DNA of 45,034 nucleotides from NCBI GenBank assembly GCA_938002255.1, contig CALLAL010000014.1:1-45034 (forward strand). Direction: 5' to 3'. This document shows positions 1 through 6,680 of the stretch, piece by piece (within the stretch, counting starts at the first letter, position 1; every line of letters begins with the position of its first letter). Below the pieces are notes generated by a model. It did not search any database. It was not told the DNA's origin and was given only the letters and a program-made list of their open reading frames with translations. The position numbers were made by a program, and so were the translations under genes. This DNA comes from an uncultured bacterium. GTDB taxonomy: Bacteria; Desulfobacterota; BSN033; UBA1163.

Positions 1-215
1 GTCTCTGTCCCGGTATATTTAAATTGTATTCTCGTTAGAGGACGGGTTCCATTAAAACAAGGATTGAAACTGATCTCGTCTGCATGGAGTTTTCTTGCTA
101 TATCAGTTAGAGGACGGGTTCCATTAAAACAAGGATTGAAACAATAATGCTGCATACGCCCTCGCTCAGGTCCATACGGTTAGAGGACGGGTTCCATTAA
201 AACAAGGATTGAAAC
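1..215 (+). CRISPR. CRISPR array, 3' part (three intact repeats)
   Basis: Three identical 37-bp repeats lie at 34-70, 106-142 and 179-215. Each begins GTTAGAGGACGGG and ends CAAGGATTGAAAC. They are separated by spacers of 35 bp (71-105) and 36 bp (143-178). Bases 1-33 are probably the end of another spacer, so the array continues to the left of the window. The ATTGAAAC end is typical of the 5' handle of type I and type III crRNAs. This suggests transcription left to right, with the leader outside the window and this being the old, trailer end. No cas gene is visible here, so the subtype cannot be given. Confidence 0.95.
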
Positions 216-237
216 CGGAACACAGGGGGGAGTGACG

Positions 238-393
238 ATGAGCGAAAAATTTGCGAAACTAATCGAAAAGGAAATCGGAGTTCGGAGGGGAACAAAATGG
301 GTGCAATCATTGCAAAACCAAATTGCTGGGATAGGGAGTGCAAACATTTTCGCGGACTTAAAATGTTCGACCCTGATGACCCATGGTCATTAG
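238..393 (+). CDS. possible 51-aa ORF in the CRISPR insert
   Basis: A short ATG frame of 51 codons is preceded by a G-rich stretch (GGGGGGAG) at a plausible ribosome-binding distance. Its first 20 residues are charged and look protein-like (MSEKFAKLIEKE). After that it overlaps the better-supported frame that starts at 297 by almost 100 bases, and its C-terminal half looks like an out-of-frame reading. It may be the 5' remnant of a phage-type gene that has lost its natural end. Family unknown; coding status doubtful. Confidence 0.25.
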   Translation: MSEKFAKLIEKEIGVRRGTKWVQSLQNQIAGIGSANIFADLKCSTLMTHGH

Positions 394-536
394 TGCCAGT
401 CTGTAAAGCATTCCCTGATGGTATTCCCGATGACATTGCTTACGGGGATAATCTACACTTCACACCTTACCCTGGTGACCGTGGAATCCGTTACGAACCA
501 GTGCAAAAAGGAGGTAAAAATGCAAAAGGAAATTAA
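297..536 (+). CDS. small Cys-containing phage-like hypothetical protein
   Basis: This 79-residue protein starts at an ATG preceded by GGAGGGG at good spacing. It is rich in features of small proteins I associate with phage and prophage regions: an N-terminal CxxxCxxF-type segment (Cys10, Cys15), a later Cys in PVCKAFPDGIPDD, and a PGDRGIRYEP stretch near the end. No function is known to me. The gene lies between the last intact CRISPR repeat and a decayed repeat copy, a place normally occupied by a spacer of about 36 bp. Its 3' end overlaps the start of the next small frame, as in a compact phage operon. The family recognition is from memory and was not checked by search. Confidence 0.55.
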   Translation: MGAIIAKPNCWDRECKHFRGLKMFDPDDPWSLVPVCKAFPDGIPDDIAYGDNLHFTPYPGDRGIRYEPVQKGGKNAKGN

Positions 537-636
537 AGAATTCACTGCTTAGGTTAAAGAATTCAATGAGCATGATTTGACGGTCGTCCATTTTATAAGC
601 ACTGAAACGAGGGATCGTGGCGGAGATATTAGTTAG
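520..636 (+). pseudogene. broken small ORF with in-frame amber codon
   Basis: A start ATG sits behind a good GGAGG (510-514) inside the end of the preceding frame. The reading frame meets TAG at 550-552 after ten codons, then stays open in the same frame for 27 more codons of plausible protein (VKEFNEHDLTVVHF...). It stops at 634-636, inside the decayed CRISPR repeat. The lysine/glutamate-rich segments on both sides of the amber codon (KEIKEF, VKEF) suggest one original gene with a nonsense mutation, cut off at its 3' end by the repeat. TAG ends other genes in this window, for example at 19052-19054, so recoding is not indicated. Confidence 0.45.
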
Positions 637-658
637 AGGATATGTCAAGGATTGACAC
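632..658 (+). repeat. decayed copy of the CRISPR repeat
   Basis: The first nine bases (632-640, GTTAGAGGA) match the 5' end of the repeat exactly. The last thirteen (646-658, CAAGGATTGACAC) match its 3' end with one substitution. The 15-base middle is reduced to five bases, giving 27 bp instead of 37. Degenerate terminal repeats are normal at the trailer end of arrays. The distance from the last intact repeat is not normal: 416 bp against 35-36 bp for the spacers. Confidence 0.8.
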
Positions 659-686
659 AAGCCCACCTGTGAGATAGGTGGGCTTT
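659..686. terminator. strong hairpin after the CRISPR array
   Basis: AAGCCCACCT (659-668) and AGGTGGGCTT (676-685) form a perfect 10-bp stem with a 7-base loop, followed by only a short T run. It lies just past the decayed repeat on one side and beyond the 3' end of the octaheme cytochrome gene on the other. It could end transcription from both directions. The weak T tract lowers confidence in the intrinsic mechanism. Confidence 0.55.
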
Positions 687-4138: not shown

Positions 4139-4185
4139 CTCAATATCGATTGCAGAACTCCGGACCCATCACGCCAGGTCCTCCG

Positions 4186-4905
4186 TCAAAGGGGATCTGA
4201 AATTCCACCGTCTTTTCTTACCCTCCAGAAGTGAATCGCCATTAAAAGAGCTGTCAAAAAAGGAAGAACGACGCAATGCAATACATAGAATCGAAGCAAT
4301 GCCTCATGGCCCACTTCGTCCGCCCCTAACATAAAGAAGCGAATTTGTTTTCCTATGATGGGCGTATAGCTCATAATCGTTGTCCCAACCGTGATGCCCC
4401 AGTAGGCCAGTTGATCCCAGGGTAGAAGATATCCGGTATAACTCAGGGCAAGGGTGAGAATCAGAAGCAGGATCCCGATGACCCAGTTAAACTCCCTCGG
4501 TGGCCTGTAGGAACGTGTATAGAAGACTCTGACCATATGGAGGAAGACCGTGAGGACCATCCCGTGGGCGGACCAGCGATGGAGATTCCTTAAAATTTTG
4601 CCGTTATAAACGAGGGCGAGAGCCTGCATGTCAAAGTAAGCCCGTTCAATCGAGGGAGTGTAGAGAAACATGAGAAGAAAACCGGTGAGAGTGAGAAGAA
4701 TGAAGAGAAGGCATGAGATCCCCCCGAGACAGAAGGTATAAGAGATACGGAGACCGTGACGTTTCATCTTTACGGGGAAGATGTGGAGAAAAAAGCTATT
4801 AAAGATAAACAGCGATTTTTTTAGATCCGTATCCGGTATTCCGGTCCTGAAAATGGATCGCCACACGGCAGATTCTGAAATGCCCTGAAGGATTCCCTTC
4901 TTCAT
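4186..4905 (-). CDS. cytochrome b N-terminal subunit (b6-like)
   Basis: The protein is 239 residues from the ATG at 4905. That ATG overlaps the stop of the upstream flavoprotein gene (ATGA), so translation is likely coupled. An upstream in-frame extension to 5004 lies inside that gene and was not used. Four transmembrane helices are visible. The two pairs of heme-b histidines are in place: HRW...FLH in the second helix, 14 residues apart, and LHC...AIH in the fourth. [16 protein letters not shown] is the conserved quinol-site segment. Together with the C-terminal subunit and the Rieske protein this makes a split cytochrome b of the b6/subunit IV kind. The coupling to a pyridine-nucleotide flavoprotein gene is unusual. 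Confidence 0.93.
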
Positions 4906-6680
4906 TTTTTCTCTTCCGTATAAAGCCATGACCCCCGATGATACTCTTCCATGGTGATCGCACCAGTGGGACATCGCCGGGCACACAGTCCGCACTGTAT
5001 GCACCTGGATTCATCTTTGATCATCGCAGTGGCATGGTTGAGGTGCGCTGCCTCTTCCCATGACACCCCATAAAGAGATTTCACCAAGTCCGAGAGTTTC
5101 TCATCGGCCTCCATCTCATCCAGCCTTGCCATACGAAGACAAAATTTAGGACAGATGTCAACACACCCGCCGCAGAGGATACATTTGGTTCGATCGAAAA
5201 CGGTAAAGAGATGACATTGGAGGCACCGTTTTGCTTCTGTTTCAGCCTCTTCCTTTGTAAATCCCAGCTCCACCTCTTTTTCAAATTCCCTTCGTTCCTT
5301 GATGGGAAGGGTTTTCATCCTCTGCCGGGGGATCTTTTCCATATCAAGATCGATTTTCACCTCAGGAACTGGCGTAAAGAAAGAGGGAGTTTCCAAAAAG
5401 GTTTCCCCACTTAGATATTGGTGGATAGAAAGAGCAGCTTTCCTTGCATCTGCAATGACGTGGATCACATCCCTGGGACCGGTGACAAAATCTCCCCCAG
5501 CAAAAATGCCTGGGACATTGGTTTCAAATGTCCCAGGATTGACAACCAGCCGATCCCATTTTGAGATTTCAAGACCAATCTCTTCTGGAAGGAAGGAGAT
5601 ATCAGGGGATTGGCTGACCGCCGGTATGAGCAAGTCAATATCGATATCAAATTCTGAGCCCTCAATCGGAACAGGCCTTCGCCGACCATCCCTCTCGGGT
5701 TCTCCTAATCGATTTTTTATGCAACGGATGCCGGATACTCTGACTCCGTCCTTAGAAAGCACTCGAATTGGCTGGGTCAGGTAATAAATTTTGATTCCTT
5801 CTTCTTCCACCTGCTCGAGCTCCCTTGGATCCACTGGCATTTCTTCCCTGGTCCTCCGGTAGAGGATCATAACCTCTTTTGCTCCCAGTCGATGGGAAGA
5901 GCGTGCTGCATCCATGGCAGTGTTTCCCCCACCCACCACCGCCACCTTTGAACCTATGTGGAATTCTTCCTTGAGGTTAACCCTTCTCATAAAGGTGACG
6001 CCATGGATGACTCCCTGAAGATTCTCACCAGGAATTCCCAATGTCTCAGCCTTATGAGCTCCTGCGGCGATATAGACGGCATCATAATTTTTTTTTAAAT
6101 CTTCGAGTTTCATCTCTTTGCCAATAGGAGTCCCTGTCCGAATCTGAACACCCAACTGCCTTACCTCTCGAATGGCTTGATCCACCACTTCTCTCGGAAG
6201 ACGGTAAGGTGGAATTCCCACGTTGAGCATTCCACCCGGCATTTGAAACGATTCGTAAAGAGTAACCCGGTATCCCCATCTTGCAAGATCATTGGCTACG
6301 GTCAGTCCAGAGGGACCTGCCCCGACAATGGCGATGTGTTGTCCTTTTGAACCGAAGGATTGCTTGGATGGGAGAGAGGAGCTTTTATGATCGGCAGAGG
6401 CTCGCTTCAAAGAACAGATGGAGATAGGAGAGTCCATCAGGAGCCCTCGTCGGCACTTCTCCTCACAGGGATGAACGCAGATCCGTCCTAAAATGGCAGG
6501 GAAGAGGTTGTCCTCTCGATTGATTTTGAAGGCACGATCATAATCTTTGTGGATAATGGCTGATATGTATAGAGGAGCACGGGTATGGACCGGACAGGCA
6601 TTCTGGCACCCTATATTCTCCTCAAACCATTGGAGATTCGGGATCTGAATGCGAAATCGAGTCAAACCGTTTTTCCTCAC
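4902..6680 (-). CDS. GltD-like NAD(P)H flavoprotein with two C-terminal [4Fe-4S] clusters
   Basis: The 592-residue protein has the fold of the glutamate synthase small subunit. An N-terminal Cys-rich region (about 25-76: [18 protein letters not shown]) is followed by an FAD dinucleotide motif GAGPSG (119-124), an NAD(P) motif GGGNTA (250-255) and the FAD end motif GIFAGGD (391-397). A ferredoxin-like tail has CxxCxxCxxxC at 500-510 and 560-570. The start is GTG at 6680, overlapping the stop of the cyclic-nucleotide-binding gene (GTGA). The next gene, cytochrome b, overlaps its stop. No glutamate synthase large subunit is nearby. The context points to a subunit that passes electrons between NAD(P)H and the cytochrome b/Rieske complex; the direction of flow is unknown. 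Confidence 0.88.

Follow-up and report, generated by a model that had tools for sequence, protein, structure and literature searches.

The trailer end of the array and its flank

The window, by which we mean the whole 45,034-nt stretch of DNA analysed here, is contig C14 of the source genome taken from its first base, and its positions 1–658 are the trailer end of a CRISPR array (Table 1). Because the window begins at base 1 of the contig, which cuts the array, the leader side is not assembled. The three intact 37-nt repeats are mutually identical and regularly placed, the spacers between them are unique and of uniform length (35 and 36 nt), and no further exact copy of the repeat exists in the source genome. 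After the third repeat come 416 nt and then a fourth, decayed repeat, which starts with GTTAGAGGA and ends with CAAGGATTGAcAC: its first nine bases are exact, its last thirteen carry one change, and its middle is short by 10 nt net. We scanned both strands of the window for the two repeat ends in order, with up to 1 + 2 mismatches, and obtained four sites, namely the three intact repeats and the decayed one; the same both-ends scan of 60 shuffles of the remaining 44 kb gave no sites. In a generic gapped alignment with cheap gaps the decayed repeat scored 14.3 against 15.0 for the best unrelated tile, which is not exceptional, and its identity therefore rests on the anchored ends and on its position. 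No further hidden repeats were found inside the 416-nt stretch. A sequence-only reading of this DNA had described three intact repeats with 35–36 bp spacers, then 416 bp, then a decayed 27-bp repeat, and both the coordinates and the both-ends scan agree with that description.

Table 1. Features at the array end of the window (positions in nt).
Feature	Position	Strand	Remarks
Partial CRISPR spacer	1–33	+	Cut by contig end
CRISPR repeat, perfect 37-mer	34–70	+	
Spacer, 35 nt	71–105	+	No match in related phage loci
CRISPR repeat, perfect 37-mer	106–142	+	
Spacer, 36 nt	143–178	+	No match in related phage loci
CRISPR repeat, perfect 37-mer	179–215	+	
Phage-derived segment in spacer position, 416 nt	216–631	+	Homology ~306–631; 216–296 without homologue
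ORF1	238–393	+	ATG after GGGGGGAG; 51 aa if read to the stop at 391–393; no homologue
ORF2, 79 aa, intact	297–536	+	Small phage head-module protein (phrog_33375)
ORF3, first 37 codons of a phage prohead protease	520–636	+	Stop in the decayed repeat
In-frame TAG in ORF3, codon 11	550–552	+	GAG/GAA (Glu) in relatives; nonsense decay
Decayed terminal CRISPR repeat, 27 nt	632–658	+	Both ends kept
Inverted repeat GCCCACCT...AGGTGGGC	661–683	+	Read from sequence; not reported by the consensus scan; possible terminator
Multihaem cytochrome gene flanking the trailer	744–2084	−	Chromosomal; relatives in several genus mates

The only other array that we found with the same repeat belongs to Deltaproteobacteria bacterium RBG_16_49_23 (hereafter G003). 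It has 82 repeat copies, one of them with a single mismatch, and adjoins cas6b, cas1, cas2 and cas4, a type I-B arrangement; its 81 full spacers average 36.4 nt (sd 1.15, range 34–41). The terminal repeat of that array is also decayed, but differently from that of the window, and the two arrays have no spacers in common. A multihaem cytochrome relative lies about 7 kb beyond its trailer end, in the same relative orientation as in the window, where the gap between array and cytochrome gene is 85 bp. The inverted repeat in this gap might terminate transcription between the array and the gene that converges on it. In G003 the intervening DNA (contig C27, about 23.6–29.3 kb; loci L061/L027) includes a Bro-N-like antirepressor gene that immediately follows the decayed terminal repeat.

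In the assembled part of the source genome we found neither Cas6b nor a type I-B cas1, and its only Cas1 is encoded on contig C39, beside a different repeat and together with Cas2 and a primase-polymerase. Since Cas6b was not found and the sole Cas1 belongs to another array, the window array, which is type I-B-like, is either orphaned or has its cas genes in the unassembled part of the genome. That 3.7-kb contig (G000:C39:1-3706, L062) carries Cas1, Cas2, a TPR-primase with an AEP-TOTE domain and the second array, whose repeat is GTGTGAGAGAATGACCTGATGAATAAGGGATTGAGAC.

Some further observations concern related arrays. At least five of the about 82 spacers of the G003 array (L027) span a ribosome-binding site and start codon in the sense orientation (e.g., AAAAAGGAGGAAACAAACATG...), which perhaps reflects the PAM or an acquisition bias for phage gene starts. 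In the reversed locus, the two spacers that precede the repeats at 6002 and 6736, ten units from each other, show a one-base difference (AGGGC[T/C]GCCCTTGAAGCCGAGGCTGCCGGTGAGAAGG); either they were captured independently from phage variants, or one spacer was duplicated and a copy then mutated. In another genome (G038:C4, L163:1747-2660), two isolated repeats of the same family stand 840 bp apart around a RelE/ParE-like toxin and its antitoxin, adjoining an array with another repeat; we considered this as a second long insert and did not count it, as it is a toxin–antitoxin pair whose flanks are not flush with the repeats.

Reading frames and phage relatives of the segment

The segment holds three compact, small open frames, each behind a ribosome-binding site. 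ORF1 overlaps ORF2 in all but its first ~20 codons; relatives of ORF1 were sought as a test of the left border, and none were found. ORF2 matches the phrog_33375 profile (E 2.3e-7) and has more than 80 relatives in IMG/VR viral contigs. Its differences from relatives cluster at third codon positions (44 of 77), the bias that selection in phages would leave on diverging genes. A protein search of genome_contigs returned no relative of ORF2, and a phylum-wide search returned distant ones only.

The 37 N-terminal residues of ORF3 share 62–78% amino acid identity with proteins of IMG/VR contigs, for example in L051, where the full-length homologue is a Caudovirus prohead protease (PF04586 and phrog_80). 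The fragment itself is too short for a Pfam match and is devoid of the catalytic domain, as it ends ahead of the region matched by PF04586 (residues 80–162 of the L051 protein). A tblastn search of the INPHARED phage collection with ORF3 gave no match. Its stop is a TAG at 634–636, inside the decayed repeat. At codon 11, where the window has an earlier in-frame TAG, six of the six relatives checked have GAG or GAA. Recoding of TAG by the phage was considered and set aside, a GAG-to-TAG point mutation being simpler given the GAG/GAA codons in the six relatives' proteases. As judged from these codons, the nonsense mutation most likely arose after capture, because a phage needs its prohead protease; such timing fits the oldest, trailer-end position of the segment and the eroded repeat beside it. 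Both the compact frames and the ending of the last one inside the decayed repeat had been noticed from the sequence alone, and both observations hold; the TAG at codon 11 went unremarked.

The nonsense codon also bears on whether the locus is an assembly artefact, in which the assembler would have joined the array and a phage contig at a repeat. We consider this very improbable. The genome is a draft of 59 contigs, this contig has its first base within the array, and identical repeats are easily misjoined. However, the right junction meets a decayed repeat that differs from the other copies, and beyond it lie chromosomal genes that the genus conserves; a left junction taken from another repeat copy would still put the segment after a repeat; and a replicating phage should not carry a nonsense codon in this gene.

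In the related phages the gene order is MuF-like head protein, ORF2 (sometimes fused to it) and prohead protease, and the order of ORF2 and ORF3 in the segment agrees. One IMG/VR contig (L145/L166) aligns with window positions 315–631 in a single contiguous match (64% over 322 nt, E 2e-31), which implies no internal rearrangement within that stretch. At the right border the same contig has 31 of 36 identical bases up to position 631 and 4 of 27 beyond it, and the other phage relatives fall from 20–27 of 36 before the border to 3–7 of 27 after it. By these alignments, the phage sequence stops either where the repeat begins, at its first base, or one base earlier. In this closest phage contig (L166:3243-5192), the MuF head protein carries the ORF2 domain as a fusion and is apparently interrupted by an intein; a 235-aa frame on the opposite strand inside the intein-like insert (4155–4862) may be a homing endonuclease.

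At the left border the segment directly follows a perfect repeat, but its positions 216–296 are without homologue. Their anatomy is phage-like, a stop codon being followed by a purine-rich tract and a start codon, though this does not prove their origin. An ordinary spacer could hide in these left 80 nt, and one may imagine a two-step patchwork in which 216 to ~251 is an old ordinary spacer to which a phage piece was added by illegitimate recombination or end joining, with loss of a repeat. This seems unlikely to us, for the ribosome-binding site and start of ORF1 lie within 216–251 and the frame continues past it, and a random junction is not expected at the right repeat border, where the phage identity reaches the last base. 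We read 216–631 as a colinear piece of the head-morphogenesis module of a tailed phage, on homology for 306–631 and presumably also for 216–305. The phage origin proposed from the sequence alone is thus borne out over ~306–631, by protein families and by a contiguous phage-contig match ending at the repeat border, and is without a homologue to support it over 216–296. In all, phage DNA takes the place of a spacer here, at about 11 times the usual length (416 nt against the mean of 36.4 nt and sd of 1.15 in the G003 array).

The other explanation offered by the sequence-only reading, a mobile fragment inserted into the last spacer, is not supported: the segment shows no terminal inverted repeats, no target-site duplication, no integrase, transposase or other mobility gene, and no leftover spacer on its right side. 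The cited literature describes viral single repeat units as well as prophages integrated into CRISPR loci, so that one can also envisage a prophage remnant, or a phage-borne mini-array of one repeat unit that was recombined into the array of the host. The fragment consists of internal head genes and not of an attachment region. A search for prophages with a full prohead protease in the source genome and its genus found only the segment itself, and exact matching of the 31-nt core of the repeat and of the decayed repeat, each against the IMG/VR viral contigs, gave no match. We regard this group of explanations as the least probable of all, with hardly any chance of being correct.

Routes of entry into the array

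We hypothesize that the segment entered by homologous recombination, incoming phage DNA having crossed over with one or two old spacers derived from that phage. We hold this reading tentatively, at a little less than an even chance, and favour it over one oversized acquisition by Cas1–Cas2, a serious but less probable contender. The last 36 nt of the segment (596–631) would have started out as a normal spacer targeting the protease gene, and recombination there would have brought the adjacent phage DNA into the array in register. The right border would be fixed at the repeat because the parental spacer ends there. On the left side, the phage DNA would have been joined to the third repeat either by a further crossover, at a different spacer derived from that phage (216–251), or by a single crossover and a subsequent deletion. 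The segment is decaying, with the nonsense codon in ORF3 and the eroded terminal repeat as its marks. Its two ends share no direct repeat, so the locus is not a simple insertion by one crossover that kept both copies of the spacer.

Recombination with old spacers accounts for the exact right border without Cas1–Cas2 breaking its length rule, and recombination between spacers and phages has a precedent (Varble 2019, as cited in PMC8616872 and PMC10434264). Several points weigh on the other side. A nucleotide search of the INPHARED collection with the segment returned nothing above chance, and since no phage of high nucleotide identity to it was found in the collections searched, the putative parental spacers and their PAMs are not visible. 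Homologies of 36 nt recombine inefficiently, and a double crossover would have to use two. Among the visible spacers of the array no other one matches a related phage, and the left 80 nt are only presumed to be phage DNA. Finally, one oversized acquisition would yield the identical final anatomy in a single step.

Such an acquisition would be abnormal. Cas1–Cas2, with or without trimming by Cas4, would have captured an untrimmed phage fragment of ~416 bp. Separate integrase complexes would have joined its two 3′ ends, one to each end of the first repeat, with the usual duplication of the repeat, much as a casposase would do. The flush right border, a putative flush left border and the flanking repeats would then come from one event, and the related array in G003, with the same repeat, carries cas4–cas1–cas2. 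Against this stands the Cas1–Cas2 ruler, which determines spacer length (PMC13034035) and would have to be broken; the reported effects of Cas4 on length are small, its loss lengthening spacers somewhat, by nucleotides and not tenfold (PMC9419969). All 81 full G003 spacers measured stay within 34–41 nt, and the assembled source genome has no type I-B cas1 or cas6b.

The locus suggests that virus DNA can enter CRISPR arrays in pieces far longer than normal. The case is one locus in one draft genome. We would expect no immunity from the segment, which should be useless as a guide because processing at the repeats would leave a spacer of ~416 nt, about 400 nt too long. There is likewise no reason to think that translation of ORF2, which is known here from its sequence, matters. 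If inserts of this kind recur, either arrays exchange DNA with the phages that they target, the memory being the landing site, or the length rule of the integrase can fail. Gene-sized phage inserts would be missed because array-finding tools and PCR-based adaptation assays select units of normal size. It is less likely than not, though worth stating, that the CRISPR integrase of this lineage inserted the untrimmed ~416-bp phage fragment as one unit with both ends exactly at repeats. If it did, spacer integration would not be strictly length-limited in vivo, and the event would amount to a casposase-like pasting of gene-sized DNA into an array.

Comparison with known systems

Our literature search found no description of a gene-sized phage insert in an array, which is weak evidence given that it covered open-access literature. 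An ordinary type I-B spacer resembles the segment in being phage DNA between two repeats, flush on the right side and in sense orientation to the phage genes; unlike it, the segment measures 416 nt and not 34–41, holds an intact gene with its ribosome-binding site and would give no normal crRNA. Decayed trailer repeats that produce apparent long spacers (CRISPRDetect, PMC4869251) share with our case the degenerate terminal repeat at the oldest end of the array, but here the long stretch is coding phage DNA without hidden repeats.

Two further cases involve phages. Prophage integration into CRISPR loci of S. pyogenes (Varble et al. 2021, cited in PMC10434264) also places phage DNA inside an array; there it is an integrated prophage, whereas the fragment here is 416 nt of internal sequence with neither an integrase nor an attachment site. 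In the recombination reported between spacers and phages in staphylococci (Varble 2019), phage DNA is likewise joined to a CRISPR locus at a spacer. In that system the array moves into phage particles or phages, whereas at the locus described here a short piece of phage would stay in the array.
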